Below, piece by piece: positions 3,041 to 14,089 of a DNA stretch of 24,920 bases. How positions within the stretch are numbered: position 1 is the stretch's first letter; the number at the start of each line of letters is the position of its first letter. The stretch spans positions 1-24,920 of the IMG/VR virus record IMGVR_UViG_3300049855_000135; one strand, given 5' to 3'. The translations under genes were made by a program, and so were the position numbers. The notes under the pieces are model-generated. The model saw only the letters and a list, made by a program, of their open reading frames with translations. It did no database searches and had not been told where the DNA came from. The DNA comes from a virus.

Positions 3041-5259
3041 TATGACACCGCCATTTCTTGCGGAACAGACTCACCCGGTAGGGACTCAGGCACGACAGGC
3101 TCCACTCCGGTTCGACCAATGTTCGCGTTCTGGTTCTGCTCAATCTGGAAATTCAGATATTTCATGTAGTTCTCGATCATGGCAACAGACGCAGGCGAAA
3201 GCGGCCCATAAGCACCGGGATTATTCATCCGAGCCATGTACAACTCCGTCACGATCCTCATGCGAGTCTCAGGGTCCTCGATGTCCGGTGGATACATCGG
3301 CTCCACACCAGCCACGAGATTGGCAAAGGTTTGAGTCGTTTCCTCAGTTACCCGTGCCGCGTTCGCCCCGGCAGTCGGAATCATCGCTCCCCAGTTCGGG
3401 TCAATGTCAGAAATCAGCGACCGGACGAACTCGCCATACGGCATGAGTCCCTTGGGGTCGAACCCTTGGATCGACTTCAAGACCTCAATCTTGCGGAGCA
3501 GATATTCCGAGTCGAACGACTCCACCTTGTATTGGAGCGTGTTGTCGTACCCCTGCTTGAGCTGTTCGACGTGTTCGGGACGCAGTCCGGCCACAGCGAA
3601 AAGAACCTCTGGCGGATAGAACTCCAAGGCCAAGGAAAGAGTCATGTCGAGGACTTCGACGATGCTATCGAGGAAACGATTGACGCGCATCTGTCTGGCA
3701 GGAGTAATTATCCCCTCCTCTGCCAAGCCGTCAGCGCGTGCGAAATACTCTGAAATCTCTTTCCGGCACTCCTCCAACATGGCCTCGGCAGCGGACGGAT
3801 ATGGCGGAGGCACAATGTATCCAGGCTCCCGGCCACCTTGCACCCGTCCAAGCACCGCATTTGGCGCAAGAGAGGTCGCATACTTCGGAAGGCCAGTACC
3901 ACCCGGACCGCCCGGCATATTTGTTACAGGCGGGTTTGTGTTGCGCTGGACGTGGTCAATAAACGAATCACGGATGATCTTTCCGATTTCCTGCTCAGAC
4001 ATCGCCAGCTCGGGGATTCCGCGAGACTCAATCAAGAGCCTGTTTCGGTTTTCCCGTGTCACGGCCACAAATGGATAGCCGCCATGATCCCGAGCGAATA
4101 GAACGCGAGGCTTCGCCATACCAGCCCCATGGTTCCATGTGTAGACGTAGACCCCCACAGAACCGTATTCGTCTGCCTTCCGACAGTACGTCTCGATGAT
4201 CTCATAAAGCCCGTCATGGCGCTCGGTTGCGTTCTGCAAGACACGAGTGCCGACCTCATTGTCCATTCCCGGTGACGAGGACATCCCCTCTTGCCCTTCG
4301 CCATCGTCGGGGGCTACCTTCTGAACGAATTCGTCGGACCAACCTTCTGTGGCCGCCATAGCAAGAATGTCTGCACGAGGATACCACCAGCGCCGGGAAA
4401 TCCATCGCGCAGTCTGAATTGACGTGGTGTTTGACGGAATGACGATATCCTCACGCAACCGGCACGCGGTGATCTCTGGACCCGCATAAACCGTAACCGG
4501 CATCGGGAACTCCATAATGCCGTCCTCATAGAACGATCTCGCCATCTTTGTCACCCGGCGCGGACGCAAGTTCGGGAACATGGCCGAAATCAAATTCTTG
4601 AGCGAATCAATCTGTGCCGGATCGTTAATCATGCCCATGACGAGGTCCAGTTCGTCATCGGTGATCGGCCTGTCCGGGTTCTGTGATTGAATCAGAGAGA
4701 TGACCTGTTGACCAAACGACGTGGCGTCCAGTCGTTCGACCTTGATGCCCTTGCGCTCGACGAAGTCCACATGAAAGATACAGGCCCCAGGAGAATCACC
4801 AAACGAATACTGGGCAGCCAGTTCCAATTCAACCGGCCAATTCTTCTTCCACTTGGAATTCACGACCCACCGGAGAAGCTGTTGTCCACGAGAGGCTACC
4901 TCGGTATCTTCCTCGCCTACTCCGTGAACGACACTCTTTGCATCGAACGCCCGACGTGTAGCTAGGACGACATCGTTCACGCACTCATTGACGATCTTGT
5001 CGGCCAGCATGTGCCGAACATCCGAAGCCCCTTCAAACGGGAGTGCATCTTTTCCGAGGTCCTTAGAGTGCTTGCGACCATCCTTTGACTGGCCAGTCCA
5101 TCGGCAGAAACGAATGTCGCCGGCCTCCTGATGACTCAGGACTACACCAGAGGACGACATCCCGACCTCTTCGTCATACTCCTGGCGAATAGCGTTAAAC
5201 TCGTCATCGGAGACTTTTTGCTCCAGCTCGTCACCTTCTATTTCGCCGGAATAACTCAC
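3040..5259 (-). CDS. Portal protein
   Basis: A 739-residue protein, the size expected for a podovirus-type portal that forms the dodecameric DNA channel at one capsid vertex and binds the terminase. The N-terminus is acidic. It is followed by the region with FEGASDVRHMLADKIVNECV (residues about 75-94), the usual N-terminal signature of large portals in which an input segment leads into an alpha-helical core. The middle carries WRW-like aromatic stretches (ARWISRRWWYPR, near residue 285). The C-terminal half is helical, with proline- and Met-rich loops. The start is GTG at 5259, overlapping the upstream stop as GTGA. The portal gene lies downstream of the capsid gene here, not between terminase and scaffold. 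The assignment rests on size, this signature and the neighbours; no catalytic motif exists to confirm it. Confidence 0.82.
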   Translation of the reverse strand: MSYSGEIEGDELEQKVSDDEFNAIRQEYDEEVGMSSSGVVLSHQEAGDIRFCRWTGQSKDGRKHSKDLGKDALPFEGASDVRHMLADKIVNECVNDVVLATRRAFDAKSVVHGVGEEDTEVASRGQQLLRWVVNSKWKKNWPVELELAAQYSFGDSPGACIFHVDFVERKGIKVERLDATSFGQQVISLIQSQNPDRPITDDELDLVMGMINDPAQIDSLKNLISAMFPNLRPRRVTKMARSFYEDGIMEFPMPVTVYAGPEITACRLREDIVIPSNTTSIQTARWISRRWWYPRADILAMAATEGWSDEFVQKVAPDDGEGQEGMSSSPGMDNEVGTRVLQNATERHDGLYEIIETYCRKADEYGSVGVYVYTWNHGAGMAKPRVLFARDHGGYPFVAVTRENRNRLLIESRGIPELAMSEQEIGKIIRDSFIDHVQRNTNPPVTNMPGGPGGTGLPKYATSLAPNAVLGRVQGGREPGYIVPPPYPSAAEAMLEECRKEISEYFARADGLAEEGIITPARQMRVNRFLDSIVEVLDMTLSLALEFYPPEVLFAVAGLRPEHVEQLKQGYDNTLQYKVESFDSEYLLRKIEVLKSIQGFDPKGLMPYGEFVRSLISDIDPNWGAMIPTAGANAARVTEETTQTFANLVAGVEPMYPPDIEDPETRMRIVTELYMARMNNPGAYGPLSPASVAMIENYMKYLNFQIEQNQNANIGRTGVEPVVPESLPGESVPQEMAVS

Positions 5260-5600: not shown

Positions 5601-6194
5601 CTAGCGGAGATAACGACGCGTGAAGTACAAGCGAACCTCGCCGGAAGTCAGCGTAGACAACGCCTCATCCGAATTAGGCGTAAACGTCAGGACGACCGGA
5701 GCCGCCGTGGTATACACCTTGTACCCGACCACACCAGCCGCGGGAGCGCGGAGGAATGTCGAGTTGTAGTTTGTGGCAGCGGCAATGAGGTTCGTCAGCA
5801 CCGTTCCTGTGGTCATCGAGACCGCAGGACGGAATAGAATCTCTGTGCCGTCCACATTGAGTTCTGTACTTTCGAGGTACAGATTCGCCGTGGTGCCATC
5901 ACCAATCGTCAGGGCGGTAGACGTGGTGAACGCATTGGTTCCATTGTCAAACGGAGTGTGCAGCGCGAGATATTCGAACTGAACAATGCAGTTTGTCGGA
6001 ATGGAGTTACTGAACGCTTCGGCAGTGTTCGTTGCGGTTTGCGTGAAGTCACTCGCCTTGATTACAACGTAATCAGTTGCATGCTTCTCAGCCATTTCAG
6101 CAACACCCATCTGGGTCCACTGAAAGGTATTCGCGTTCGCAGACACAGCTACGGCCATAAGGACCGCAGACAATCCAAACTTCAACTTCTTCAT
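5601..6194 (-). CDS. Predicted exported beta-rich protein in the capsid gene cluster
   Basis: A 197-residue protein. A longer frame exists upstream, but the ATG at 6194 has AAAGGA nine bases upstream and starts a classic Sec signal peptide: MKKLKFG, a hydrophobic core (LSAVLMAVAVS) and an Ala-Asn-Ala cleavage site near residue 21. The mature part is rich in Thr, Ala, Asn and Val, with several TN pairs and no Cys except one near residue 74. This composition suggests a beta-sandwich such as a decoration or fibre-like domain. Between the coiled-coil protein and the portal-side genes, it occupies the place where phages often encode head decoration proteins. A signal peptide on such a protein is unusual. 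Export to the periplasm or outer membrane of the host is a real alternative. Confidence 0.75.
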   Translation of the reverse strand: MKKLKFGLSAVLMAVAVSANANTFQWTQMGVAEMAEKHATDYVVIKASDFTQTATNTAEAFSNSIPTNCIVQFEYLALHTPFDNGTNAFTTSTALTIGDGTTANLYLESTELNVDGTEILFRPAVSMTTGTVLTNLIAAATNYNSTFLRAPAAGVVGYKVYTTAAPVVLTFTPNSDEALSTLTSGEVRLYFTRRYLR

Positions 6195-6217
6195 GATCTT
6201 TTTCCTTTCGCGCTGGA

Positions 6218-6247
6218 GCCTCCCGGCAGTGTGACCTACCGGGAGGC
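6218..6247 (-). promoter_or_regulatory. Intergenic GC-rich hairpin before the exported-protein gene
   Basis: Perfect nine-base arms (GCCTCCCGG at 6218-6226 and CCGGGAGGC at 6239-6247) enclose a 12-base loop in the only sizeable gap of this operon, between the 108-residue protein and the exported protein. No U-tract follows on the minus strand, so it is not a standard terminator. It could stabilise or process the mRNA, or set the ratio of capsid to downstream products. Confidence 0.55.
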
Positions 6248-6266
6248 GGAGCAACGCATTCAGAGA

Positions 6267-6593
6267 TTACTTCTTCTTCGCAGCCTGTTCATTCAACTTG
6301 GCCGCGAGTCCTTCGACTTTAAGCCGGTTTTCCTCACACTTCGCCTTGATCCGAGCAGCCTGCTCATCAAGAGCAGCCTGTTGAGCCAGAGCGCCAGCGA
6401 GAAGGTTCAGCAGATTCACCTTGTGTTGCTTCTCAGTAACACCGGCCTGTGCCTTGCGGAATTCAGCCTCACACTCCTCCACAGGAAGATCGACGAATTT
6501 GCGAGCAAGCGCCTCGACTTCCTTGGGATCAATGTTACTGGCATACCGCGCCAAGATCGTGTTCTCGGCGTACATTTCCTTGAGCTTATCCAT
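6267..6593 (-). CDS. Small coiled-coil protein following the capsid gene
   Basis: This 108-residue, strongly helical, charged protein starts at the ATG at 6593 with AAAGGAG six bases upstream, directly after the capsid stop. The sequence is rich in Ala, Glu, Lys and Leu. A heptad-like pattern runs from about residue 40 to the end (LLNLLAGALAQQAALDEQAA, then KCEENRLKVEGLAAKLNEQ), ending in four basic residues. No family is recognised. Possible roles are assembly chaperone, head-completion factor or internal head protein. Its position between capsid and the exported protein implies late expression. Confidence 0.75.
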   Translation of the reverse strand: MDKLKEMYAENTILARYASNIDPKEVEALARKFVDLPVEECEAEFRKAQAGVTEKQHKVNLLNLLAGALAQQAALDEQAARIKAKCEENRLKVEGLAAKLNEQAAKKK

Positions 6594-6603
6594 GATGTCT
6601 CCT

Positions 6604-7608
6604 TTACGACGCGATCAACGCCATGCCCTGACCCTTGCCGGTCAACTGACCGAGGCCCATGAAGCAGTCGATGAAGCCCTTGGGACCAGAACCATCTTCG
6701 GGCAGGTTCGTGTTGCTGATGGGTTGCATCCAGCGGGTTTCCCACAGGTCGGGATCGAAGAACAGCCCCGACTTCGTGGAGTAACCGGACGTAGGAGCGC
6801 CAGTCGTGAGGTCACGATACAGGAACTCGCTGATGAACAGGTTGATCGTCCCGAAGGAAGTTTCAATGGTCCGAACGACCTTCTTGAACTTCTCAGGGTT
6901 GCTCTGCGTCCACAGGACTCGAGTATTCGCGGTGATGGAAGCGGGTTGATAGTTCGTGAACGTATCAAACGCAGCCTTCAGTTCGCGGCCACAAGCACCC
7001 ATGAGGTCCAGCGCGGACTTCTTCTCGCTGAACATCGAGGACAGCATCGTAGTCACGGCCAACTCATCGAACGCGGCAAGCGTCGAAGTGTAGTTGTTGG
7101 CAGTAGACGGACGCTGAGACGCAGGAACCGGAATCGTTCCACCCTGGGTTGTACTCTGGAGGCCAGAAAACATACCACGGGTCAACCAAGGCGTTCCACC
7201 AGTCTGCGGTGTGCAGTTCTGGTTCGACAGGATGACCTGTTCCATGATGCGGTTCAGGTACGTGATCGCCAGCATGCGCTGATGACCAGCAGTGTTGCGG
7301 CCCTGACCAGCGGCGGCAGTCAACGCACGACGCTTGGTAACGCCCCACTCACGACGGAAGTGCTGGACACAGCCGAAGATTTCGACCTGTTCCGTGGTTT
7401 CCGGGTTTGTGGCTGCGGCCCCATCCATCACGCCAGTACTCGGGACATTGTCCAGAGATTCAGCGATGCTGGAATATAGGGAGTTTGTGACGGGCGACCC
7501 CTTGCCAATCATGGCGAGAACGGGAGTTGCCTCGGCCTCAATCTGAGTGATTGAGTCTTTGATATTCTGGAGTTTGCCTACCAGTGCGGCTTCATTACCT
7601 GCGGGCAT
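6604..7608 (-). CDS. Major capsid protein, SU10/DUF5309-like
   Basis: A 334-residue protein of the usual size for an HK97-fold capsid subunit without a long N-terminal scaffold. The N-terminus has a KDSITQIEAEATPVLAMIGK stretch. It is followed by VQHFRREWGVTKRR (around residues 81-94), a helix with ITYLNRIMEQVIL, a Gly-rich loop with an RGMFSGL element (around 144-150), and the beta-rich C-terminal half with TSFGTINLFISEFLY. This order fits the DUF5309 family of podovirus-like major capsid proteins (SU10 type), from my memory of that family. The gene follows the scaffold-like gene by 17 bases. The upstream ribosome-binding site is modest (AAAGAAG), so coupling with the scaffold gene is possible. 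The capsid call is strong from context; the family name is less certain. Confidence 0.85.
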   Translation of the reverse strand: MPAGNEAALVGKLQNIKDSITQIEAEATPVLAMIGKGSPVTNSLYSSIAESLDNVPSTGVMDGAAATNPETTEQVEIFGCVQHFRREWGVTKRRALTAAAGQGRNTAGHQRMLAITYLNRIMEQVILSNQNCTPQTGGTPWLTRGMFSGLQSTTQGGTIPVPASQRPSTANNYTSTLAAFDELAVTTMLSSMFSEKKSALDLMGACGRELKAAFDTFTNYQPASITANTRVLWTQSNPEKFKKVVRTIETSFGTINLFISEFLYRDLTTGAPTSGYSTKSGLFFDPDLWETRWMQPISNTNLPEDGSGPKGFIDCFMGLGQLTGKGQGMALIAS

Positions 7609-11372: not shown

Positions 11373-11773
11373 TTCTCCACCCCGCAATCCGTTGTCAGAA
11401 TCAGGCCGTTGGTCTGAAACCAATACCCATTCATAGGGAATACAAAGTTCGTTATCCCACCCCAAGGCATCCCGTTGGTGTACGTGAATGGCATGGGGTC
11501 AAACTTCCAGCCATAGGGGTTGCCTTGCTGGCACTTGCAGGAGGGGCGGGATTCAAGTGTCCTGACCCTTTCGGATAGCTTGGTGAATCGAGTGAACTCG
11601 AACTCGTCATTAGAGTCCATGCGCTTGCTGGATTGTTCGTGTAGCCAGTATACGTATCGGTCTTGCCTTTCGAGACGCGATTCATACTCATCCCCCTGCC
11701 GGATCACCCTTAACCCAAGGCACCCCACGTACAGGCACAGCGCGTAGAGCATGAGGCGGTCGGGGGTTGTCAT
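11369..11773 (-). CDS. Membrane-anchored coiled-coil protein, possible lysis accessory
   Basis: The ATG at 11773 (start MTTPDRL) has AAGGA about ten bases upstream and overlaps the previous stop as ATGA, giving 134 residues. Residues 8-25 form one hydrophobic helix (MLYALCLYVGCLGLRVI). A charged coiled coil follows (RLERQDRYVYWLHEQSSKR to about residue 75) and then a Gly/Pro/Asn-rich C-terminus with repeated TNG. One membrane helix plus a coiled coil in the periplasm resembles an inner-membrane spanin, but the length and C-terminus are unusual and no partner is obvious, so this is only a suggestion. Its first 17 bases match those of two other genes here. Confidence 0.6.
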   Translation of the reverse strand: MTTPDRLMLYALCLYVGCLGLRVIRQGDEYESRLERQDRYVYWLHEQSSKRMDSNDEFEFTRFTKLSERVRTLESRPSCKCQQGNPYGWKFDPMPFTYTNGMPWGGITNFVFPMNGYWFQTNGLILTTDCGVEK

Positions 11774-11886
11774 TTGAAGATGATCCTTATTGCTTGAATG
11801 CAGCATATGAATGTTGTGCTAAGTAGGATTGCCACTGTTACACCGTCGATTGCTTTTATTAACGCCAGCGCATCTGTGTGGGTCAT
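11770..11886 (-). CDS. Tiny membrane protein (38 residues), holin-like size
   Basis: The start is the ATG at 11886, preceded by a good GGAGGT site seven bases upstream, and the gene overlaps its neighbours by ATGA on both sides (stop TGA at 11770-11772). The product has a single hydrophobic helix at about residues 15-35 (GVTVAILLSTTFICCIQAIR) with a charged N-terminal segment. It is too short for a standard class I holin but has the shape of a small class III-like holin or a membrane micropeptide. The strong ribosome-binding site and dual overlaps make it a real gene; the role is not known. Confidence 0.65.
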   Translation of the reverse strand: MTHTDALALIKAIDGVTVAILLSTTFICCIQAIRIIFK

Positions 11887-12128
11887 TCCACCACCTCCAT
11901 CAACTCCGCCACGAGCCTATCCGCCGCCTGCTCAACGGCGAGCTTGGCTTCGGCAATGGATTTGTACGCCCCACAAAACACACCTAGCACATGGCCGTGA
12001 TAGCGTGGGGACGGTGGACAGCCTTGTAGATGTTTGTACACATCACCAGCAGAGGACAGAGACTCACCATCCCCGTCATCTTCCCACACCACCGGCCTGC
12101 GCCGGTACAGACGGTCGGGGGTTGTCAT
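11883..12128 (-). CDS. Small orphan protein, intact copy of a duplicated gene
   Basis: This 81-residue protein starts at the ATG at 12128 with a near-perfect AAGGAGG site six bases away and overlaps its neighbour as ATGA. The N-terminus is MTTPDRLYRRRPVVWE, followed by an acidic Gly/Asp stretch, then a middle with GHVLGVFCGAYKSI. The C-terminal helix EAKLAVEQAADRLVAELMEVV looks like a small interaction or coiled-coil helix. Remnants of the same gene occur at 13839-13895 (N-terminus) and 12920-13072 (C-terminus), so this copy shows the likely original form. No family is recognised. Confidence 0.7.
   Translation of the reverse strand: MTTPDRLYRRRPVVWEDDGDGESLSSAGDVYKHLQGCPPSPRYHGHVLGVFCGAYKSIAEAKLAVEQAADRLVAELMEVVE
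11890..11953. repeat. Copy 1 of a 64-bp repeat coding for a shared C-terminal helix
   Basis: This 64-bp stretch is matched at 12927-12990 with only two differences (62 of 64). In both it is the 3' end of a minus-strand gene and encodes EAKLAVEQAADRLV(A/S)ELMEVV. Confidence 0.8.
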
Positions 12129-12226
12129 GCATCCCTCCTTACCGCGACTGGATTTGAATTAGGGTCCCATGAGAATATCGCAGTAGGTTTTTCCTTCATG
12201 GCCCGCTTTATGGATTGAGTGGCACT
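12083..12226. repeat. Copy 1 of a 144-bp repeat
   Basis: It is identical to 13850-13993 except for one base (position 12209, T against C). It contains the last two-thirds of the 65-residue gene, the AAGGAGG ribosome-binding site, and the first 16 codons of the next gene. A hairpin ACCGGC-CTGC-GCCGGT (12091-12106) lies eight bases inside its end. Confidence 0.85.
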
Positions 12227-12322
12227 GTATCGGTTTGAATAATACGTCACTTCTCCGATTGGCAGATTTAACAAGCCGCAGCGAAGTCGCCCAAGGTATT
12301 TCGTGAAATTATTATCGCTCAT
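12125..12322 (-). CDS. Small duplicated protein, copy 1
   Basis: A 65-residue protein from the ATG at 12322, overlapping its neighbours as ATGA at both ends. It contains FTKYLGRLRCGLLNLPIGEV, then YYSNRYSATQSIKRAMKEK, then FSWDPNSNPVAVRRDA. The second copy at 13892-14089 differs mainly in the first 35 residues, while the last 32 residues are nearly identical. A basic, Arg-rich, mixed alpha/beta peptide of this size may bind nucleic acid or protein, but no family is recognised. Confidence 0.7.
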   Translation of the reverse strand: MSDNNFTKYLGRLRCGLLNLPIGEVTYYSNRYSATQSIKRAMKEKPTAIFSWDPNSNPVAVRRDA

Positions 12323-12795: not shown

Positions 12796-12923
12796 GGCAA
12801 ATCACCTTCAATCACCACTTCGCGGTATCTGAATCTCCAAAGCTCTGCCCTTTTGTAACACGCAAGGTAAGCCCATACCCAAAACCGCATCATTATTTTT
12901 GCCTGCGTAATCATAAGCCTCAC
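12792..12923 (-). CDS. Tiny aromatic/basic ORF (43 residues), tentative
   Basis: The GTG at 12923 overlaps the stop of the previous gene (GTGA), and the stop overlaps the next start as ATGA. The product (start MRLMITQAKIMMRFWVWAYL) has a hydrophobic/aromatic N-terminal half and a basic end. An internal ATG at the fourth codon is an alternative start. Overlaps on both sides support it, but no homology can be judged. Confidence 0.5.
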   Translation of the reverse strand: MRLMITQAKIMMRFWVWAYLACYKRAELWRFRYREVVIEGDLP

Positions 12924-13072
12924 GTTACCACCTCCATCAACTCCGACACCAGCCTATCCGCCGCCTGCTCAACGGCGAGCTTGGCTTCGGGAACATTATC
13001 AAATCGTTCGCGTATTTCCTGCGCCATCAAAAACGGATCGGGACGAAGACATGGCCCATTAAAGTCATTCAT
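12920..13072 (-). CDS. Small gene carrying the C-terminal module of the duplicated gene (50 residues)
   Basis: The ATG at 13072 overlaps the stop of the PAPS-reductase-like gene as ATGA, and the stop is TGA at 12920-12922. Residues 1-28 (start MNDFNGPCLRPDP) are not found elsewhere in the window. Residues 29-49 (EAKLAVEQAADRLVSELMEV) are almost identical to the end of the 81-residue protein at 11883-12128. The gene thus looks like a fusion of new N-terminal sequence to the surviving C-terminal half of a second copy of that gene. Confidence 0.65.
   Translation of the reverse strand: MNDFNGPCLRPDPFLMAQEIRERFDNVPEAKLAVEQAADRLVSELMEVVT
12927..12990. repeat. Copy 2 of a 64-bp repeat coding for a shared C-terminal helix
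   Basis: It matches 11890-11953 at 62 of 64 positions. It lies at the end of the 50-residue gene, on the far side of the PAPS-reductase-like gene from the 144-bp repeat copy at 13850-13993. Confidence 0.8.
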
Positions 13073-13842
13073 ATAAAACATTCTCCGTTTGGACAGCTTC
13101 CAGAAAACAGGTCGTCAGGTTTGGTTAAATCAGCCGCCGCCAGTGGCTTTATTTTGCTGTGTAAAAACGCATGAGGATCGCTAATCCTAATCACCGAATC
13201 CAGCGTAAGTGCTGCCTCGTACTTCGCCGGCCAGCGATTTTTCACCTCTGCCCATTCACTGTCTGATTGATTGGGACACATGTAGCACCTTGACCTTGGC
13301 GGTGTGGGCCATCCCATGTCTATAACGGACTGAATGGCGTCCTGTCGCTTTAGGCGCAATTCAACCAATGGGAATCTGACCAATCCGGCCTTGTAGTCCT
13401 TACCCTCCATCATTCGGTTATATCGTCGAGGCTCGTCGAACGAGAATCCAATCCATTTAACCCATGATCCTTTTTTGACTCCATGAACACGCTTTAACCA
13501 TCTCTCGATTGGTCTCACTTTCCACTCGTTGGTGCAGAAATTTGACAACTTTGACGGATTCCCTGTTTGATTGCTGAATGCCGGTATCAACAAAGACCCG
13601 CTCGCGTGGAATACACCGGACGCGCTATCGCTTACCCACTGCGGCCCAACCCTGTGAACAACTAGGCCAATCTTGTCAAGAGCAGGCGCAACTACAGAAT
13701 CCATGTACTCCCATGTTGACGGGGCCTCCCTGCCCGTGTCTGCGATGACTATGAAATCTGGACGCGGCAGCTTGCCTTGAATAATCAAGGCTGCTATCGC
13801 GCTGGACTGTGTCCCGCCGCCTGATGAAAATACCTGAATCAT
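13069..13842 (-). CDS. PAPS-reductase/adenine nucleotide alpha-hydrolase family PP-loop protein
   Basis: The start is the ATG at 13842 (257 residues), overlapping a short upstream ORF as ATGA with GGGAGGGG upstream; the longer frame only reads the repeat region. A PP-loop SSGGGTQSSA occurs at residues 6-15, followed by IVIADTGREAPSTWEYM (31-47) and NFCTNEWKVRPIERWL (101-116), all typical of PAPS-reductase-like enzymes that bind an adenine nucleotide. C-terminal Cys pairs at 186/189 (CYMC) and 250/255 could bind metal or an Fe-S cluster. True sulfate assimilation is unlikely in a phage. DNA phosphorothioation-type (DndC-like) chemistry, another nucleotide modification, or sulfur transfer are the more reasonable roles. 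The gene sits inside a split duplicated gene, so it looks like an acquired cargo gene. Confidence 0.85.
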   Translation of the reverse strand: MIQVFSSGGGTQSSAIAALIIQGKLPRPDFIVIADTGREAPSTWEYMDSVVAPALDKIGLVVHRVGPQWVSDSASGVFHASGSLLIPAFSNQTGNPSKLSNFCTNEWKVRPIERWLKRVHGVKKGSWVKWIGFSFDEPRRYNRMMEGKDYKAGLVRFPLVELRLKRQDAIQSVIDMGWPTPPRSRCYMCPNQSDSEWAEVKNRWPAKYEAALTLDSVIRISDPHAFLHSKIKPLAAADLTKPDDLFSGSCPNGECFI

Positions 13843-13895
13843 TGCCCCTCCCACACCACCGGCCTGCGCCGGTACAGACGGTCGGGGGTTGTCAT
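13839..13895 (-). pseudogene. N-terminal remnant of the duplicated 81-residue gene (18 codons)
   Basis: From the ATG at 13895 it reads MTTPDRLYRRRPVVWE, exactly as the gene at 11883-12128, then GQ and a stop where similarity ends (at 13850). It keeps the strong AAGGAGG site. Its stop overlaps the start of the PAPS-reductase-like gene as ATGA, so the remnant may now serve as a short leader that couples translation into that gene. Confidence 0.7.
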
Positions 13896-13993
13896 GCATC
13901 CCTCCTTACCGCGACTGGATTTGAATTAGGGTCCCATGAGAATATCGCAGTAGGTTTTTCCTTCATGGCCCGCTTCATGGATTGAGTGGCACT
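13850..13993. repeat. Copy 2 of a 144-bp repeat
   Basis: It is identical to 12083-12226 except for one base. On one side it ends inside the second 65-residue gene; on the other it ends exactly where the short remnant ORF turns into the start region of the PAPS-reductase-like gene. A hairpin ACCGGC-CTGC-GCCGGT (13858-13873) lies near that breakpoint. Confidence 0.85.
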
Positions 13994-14089
13994 TTGCCTC
14001 GATGAATAATGCGCTACGCTTCCAATCGGCATATCTACCAATCGAATACTAAGGCGACCAATTAACTTCTTGAAGTTATACTCTTTCAT
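13892..14089 (-). CDS. Small duplicated protein, copy 2
   Basis: The ATG at 14089 has AAGGAGG six bases upstream and overlaps the previous stop as ATGA, giving 65 residues; the long upstream frame is spurious. The first half (MKEYNFKKLIGRLSIRLVDM) is related to, but diverged from, the copy at 12125-12322. From the ATQSMKRAMKEK region on, the two are almost identical in DNA. Recent gene conversion or duplication of the 3' half is the simplest reading. Function is unknown. Confidence 0.7.
   Translation of the reverse strand: MKEYNFKKLIGRLSIRLVDMPIGSVAHYSSRQSATQSMKRAMKEKPTAIFSWDPNSNPVAVRRDA

Follow-up and report, generated by a model that had tools for sequence, protein, structure and literature searches.

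Gene 68 of mycobacteriophage Island3 has no homologues except over its C-terminal 18 residues, in which the end of gene 67 recurs (PMC3029335). From a comparison of this region with Brujita, the authors of that study attribute it to recombination at a shared sequence of about 50 bp, with insertion and deletion not distinguishable from each other (PMC3029335). Here we describe a locus of the Island3 67/68 kind that has two joints and whose cargo gene can be recognised. The locus lies in the virus record IMGVR_UViG_3300049855_000135 from IMG/VR, which is 24,920 bp long, has no end repeats and was analysed over its whole length (the window). The small genes under study are on the minus strand, flanked by the terminase gene and by rightward replication genes. 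Their order from 5′ to 3′ is 135-aa, 65B, an 18-codon leader, PP-loop, 50B, 43-aa, 60-aa, 97-aa, 65A, 81A, 37-aa and 129-aa, beyond which lie another small ORF and then the terminase. With the exception of the 60-aa/97-aa pair, every joint from the 135-aa to the 129-aa gene is a 4-base stop/start overlap (NTGA, either ATGA or GTGA). The original prediction, made from the letters of the window, had placed an intact pair of a 65-aa and an 81-aa gene at 11883-12322, and a 65-aa gene, an 18-codon ORF, a complete PP-loop gene and a 50-aa gene at 12920-14089; all of these genes are present (Table 1).

Table 1. Genes, repeat blocks and shared start sequence of the two loci, in window coordinates.
Feature	Position	Strand	Remarks
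65A, 65-aa gene of the intact pair	12125..12322	-	without known family
81A, intact 81-aa gene	11883..12128	-	ATGA overlap with 65A; without known family
65B, paralogue of 65A	13892..14089	-	residues 1-32 with 47% aa identity to 65A; residues 33-65 with 32/33
18-codon leader ORF, MTTPDRLYRRRPVVWEGQ	13839..13895	-	first 16 residues as in 81A; stop overlaps PP-loop start (ATGA)
PP-loop (PAPS-reductase-like) gene, 257 aa, phrog_424	13069..13842	-	conserved cysteines all present
50B, 50-aa gene	12920..13072	-	last 22 residues match 81A C terminus (20/22); ATGA overlap with PP-loop stop
Right repeat block, copy A	12082..12226	-	C-terminal half of 65A, embedded Shine-Dalgarno and 81A start
Right repeat block, copy B	13849..13993	-	144/145 to copy A
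Left repeat block, copy A, 3′ end of 81A	11890..11956	-	64/67 to copy B
Left repeat block, copy B, 3′ end of 50B	12927..12993	-	64/67 to copy A
125-bp middle of 81A, missing at the second locus	11957..12081	-	best local score against 12994-13848 at shuffle level
Third copy of the first 20 nt of the 81A start (ATGACAACCCCCGACCG exact)	11754..11773	-	opens the next gene (MTTPDRLML...)

The two loci share a right and a left block, both with sharp edges. No other repeats in the window come close to them in strength (self-BLAST E 4e-72 and 2e-24, respectively), and the right block contains a perfect run of 127 nt. The DNA identities first reported for the two sides, 143/144 and 62/64, are reproduced over 12082-12225 and 11890-11953. 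Between the blocks lie 125 bp at the intact locus and 855 bp at the split locus, with similarity no higher than that of shuffled sequences, which makes the split locus a replacement allele rather than the intact locus plus an addition. Short, near-identical blocks of 145 and 67 bp that edge non-homologous segments are the pattern of a mosaic. Divergence is 0.7% in the right block and 4.5% in the left (p = 0.09), and because these identities differ slightly, the blocks may stem from separate events and need not share one. At the joints themselves, the leader had been read as 18 codons of the 81-aa N terminus; its first 16 residues (47 nt) are indeed common, whereas its two final residues (GQ) come from the PP-loop side. 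The match between the C-terminal half of the 50-aa gene and the 81-aa C terminus is real, and its precise extent is 22 residues, 20 of them identical. For residues 1-28 of the 50-aa gene, a search for their origin gave no match at 94 PP-loop loci or in tblastn of phages.

Homology between 65A and 65B runs end to end, including a weaker first half in which 59/96 nt are identical over the first 32 codons, a match on which the original prediction was silent. Differences amount to 37/96 over these codons and 1/145 in the adjoining block (Fisher p = 2.6e-16), such that divergence falls sharply from 38.5% to 0.7% within the 65-aa gene. Within codons 1-32, 8 of the 15 conserved residues use different codons, and silent sites are saturated. 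The first 32 codons of the two genes thus look like old paralogues, while the 145-bp piece appears to have been common to both loci recently. Diverged N termini beside 145 near-identical bp imply at least two events, and a single recent duplication, as originally proposed, is contradicted by the step inside the gene. The proposal that cargo was purely inserted fails as well, with 125 bp of the 81-aa middle missing from the second copy. What survives of the duplication-then-insertion scheme is a widespread mobile cargo gene lying within fragments of a cassette.

We therefore favour, with a probability of roughly 0.7, a recombination mosaic of two diverged 65-aa/81-aa cassettes, one of them carrying the PP-loop replacement, with the blocks either copied later or marking crossover joints. 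The setting would be a small-gene operon of a tailed phage, tightly packed and probably coupled in translation, where two diverged versions of the cassette, paralogous or allelic, would have ended up 1.8 kb apart. In one cassette, a complete PP-loop gene and a short stretch without a match would have taken the place of the middle of the 81-aa gene. The 145-bp and 67-bp blocks would then have been copied between the loci by gene conversion or double crossover; alternatively, these blocks could be the crossover joints that placed the PP-loop allele. The leader would retain a strong ribosome-binding site and the ATGA, so that ribosomes leaving the 65-aa gene pass to the PP-loop gene; coupling to the gene that follows would be maintained through the 50-aa gene.

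The high identity of both blocks, together with the mobile, accessory character of the PP-loop gene, would also fit one recent duplication of the 65-aa/81-aa pair, followed by PP-loop insertion with loss of the 81-aa middle and by a separate, later replacement of the 65-aa N terminus. We regard this history as unlikely, since the diverged N terminus demands an extra event in addition to the 125-bp loss, and homology is confined to these genes and excludes their neighbours. The reverse order, in which the PP-loop arrangement is older and the intact 81-aa gene is a newer chimera of a start block and an end block, draws on the use of the start block three times, its first 20 nt also opening the gene at 11773, and on the lack of any 81-aa homologue in the collections searched. 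Such an older state is not seen in any relative, however, and at the 94 loci where the PP-loop gene occurs elsewhere, it never has 65-, 81- or 50-aa flanks, which makes this order quite improbable.

An assembly artefact was weighed as well: a metagenome contig in which variants of a single locus from different strains had been joined, or given the wrong phase, at the repeat. In its favour, the record is an IMG/VR virus contig, and the longest perfect stretch of the repeat, at exactly 127 nt, equals a maximum k-mer often used by metagenome assemblers. Yet unique flanks border both sides of each copy, and for this reason one false join cannot build the structure; mis-phasing could only swap half pairings, and we consider an artefact very improbable. 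The mosaic of two diverged cassettes remains our preferred reading.

The start of the 81-aa gene is shared more widely. Its first 17 nt also begin a third gene at 11773 (3 hits against 0.06 expected). Read from the start codon on, 20 nt open three different genes (MTTPDRL...), at 11754-11773, 12109-12128 and 13876-13895, with one mismatch in the third copy. A hairpin had also been placed at both copies of the breakpoint. This hairpin is contained in the copied block, at a distance of 9 nt from the block edge, so its presence at both copies counts as one occurrence, and it is of an ordinary type, perfect 6-bp stems with 4-nt loops numbering 12 in the window. RNA folding found the leader no more structured than shuffles (z about -0.3). 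On these grounds, we rejected the hairpin as a cause of the rearrangement.

Upstream of the leader start, the final codons of the 65-aa gene contain an AAGGAGG motif, and the leader ends in ATGA at the PP-loop start, which is preceded by GGGAGGGG. An in-frame upstream ATG at 13899 would extend the PP-loop protein by 19 residues. This ATG is one base from the ribosome-binding site, a spacing too close for good initiation. Given the NTGA overlaps between neighbouring genes, the leader most likely does no more than maintain translational coupling, as judged from the anatomy of overlaps and ribosome-binding sites. The tight NTGA overlaps on both sides of the PP-loop gene likewise suggest co-translation rather than a moron's own signals. 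A more general scheme would cast start-anchored blocks (ribosome-binding site, ATGA and first codons) as reusable docking joints, at which cargo is swapped by homologous exchange while coupling is kept. Bearing on this scheme are a start-region duplication that flanks the PP-loop gene at locus L075 and recent duplications that adjoin it at locus L095; we hold it to be a long shot.

The PP-loop gene is intact, and its product matches phrog_424 over residues 1-214 (profile search, E 2e-33). Against Pfam PAPS_reduct, the protein scores 15.4 bits, below the gathering cut-off of 22.5 that a true PAPS reductase (CysH) would reach. An SGGGTQS-type PP-loop, Cys103, Cys186/Cys189 and a terminal pair, Cys250/Cys255, are invariant or nearly so across 34 sequences. 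The solved folds nearest to the predicted structure (pLDDT 89.8) are sulfur-transfer enzymes with a [4Fe-4S] cluster (NcsA, LarE and TtuA; TM 0.42-0.44). Searching solved structures by sequence gave only a weak profile match, to a chain named PptA, and nothing with the single sequence. ATP-dependent sulfur transfer is our best guess at the activity, which is uncertain because the fold matches are weak, and the protein is probably an enzyme of this type with its own role in infection. No Dnd or Ssp partner genes, which would be expected beside a DndC phosphorothioation enzyme, were recognised among the scanned window proteins, which covered part of the ORFs and involved no dnd-specific profiles. 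Literature searches on the function of phage PP-loop proteins of the phrog_424 type gave no experimental answer.

Relatives of the PP-loop gene occur in 64 phage records, 96 IMG/VR candidates and 6 bacterial or MAG contigs, where they sit beside unrelated genes, and the gene is a widespread phage accessory gene. The 65-, 81- and 50-aa proteins had no relatives in phages by tblastn, and scans of IMG/VR gave no confirmed relative of the 65- and 81-aa proteins. Relatives of all three were absent near the PP-loop gene in 94/94 fetched loci. The split order without the intact pair was not seen at these loci, in keeping with the original prediction, and because 0/94 carry these genes, the arrangement seems private to this unsampled lineage. 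The comparison originally suggested, with a relative that has the intact pair and no PP-loop gene, found no such genome in any collection searched, nor was a relative with an empty or single cassette found. Phage megablast and IMG/VR scans with the terminase, 65-aa, 81-aa and capsid sequences revealed no close relatives of the phage. Only distant ones emerged, namely Phage C75C1 (23-25% identity) and L025, which is related by terminase and portal and carries its PP-loop gene directly between these two genes, an independent position.

Direct repeats straddle 6/93 PP-loop genes at the fetched loci and 15/519 other genes of at least 150 aa; at p = 0.08, repeats around PP-loop genes are not clearly special, and an earlier position-shift test (p about 0.01-0.04) is not relied on. 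Individual loci show further rearrangements. A 131-aa ORF at L002:5728-6123 consists of the last ~41 PP-loop residues fused to an unrelated N terminus, another illegitimate junction, and at L074:3951-4735 the PP-loop gene is broken into two consecutive ORFs with an ATGA overlap. In L075, the PP-loop gene's ribosome-binding site and opening codons appear a second time where the following gene starts (4961-4997 and 5734-5773). In a Propionivibrio MAG, near-identical duplicated small genes, one of them chimeric, directly follow the PP-loop gene (L095:1354-2216 and 5780-6604).

Taken as a whole, the locus is a clear but ordinary example of how recombination reshuffles small genes in phages, and it goes back to more than one event. 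Its joint is well preserved, an accessory gene having been fitted into an operon of overlapping small genes with reading frames unbroken, and it illustrates that near-identical repeats in a phage can record exchange between old paralogues and not necessarily fresh duplication. Coming from an unsampled lineage, the phage contributes one more example and no new principle.

Island3 67/68 resembles the locus in that a small gene without homologues shares its end with a neighbour, there over about 18 codons (60 bp), which was ascribed to recombination between short shared sequences where a phage gene had been inserted or deleted (PMC3029335). Unlike in Island3, two shared blocks flank an identifiable cargo gene here, a third stretch shows older paralogy, and there is no close relative for comparison. 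As with phage morons and mosaicism at short boundary sequences (PMC3029335), an accessory gene found in unrelated phages and places is joined at gene edges, although here, in contrast to morons, the joints fall inside small ORFs. The phrog_424 proteins of Pseudomonas phage BUCT566, Vibrio phage douglas 12A4 and Thermus phage P23-77 match near their whole length and share the PP-loop and cysteines, and only the genomic setting here is unusual. The 20-nt repeat at three gene starts recalls the Start-Associated Sequences of Cluster K mycobacteriophages, which also recur at several gene starts (PMC3203893). Those sequences lie upstream of the start codon and are far more numerous, whereas the repeat described here begins at the ATG and is present in three copies.
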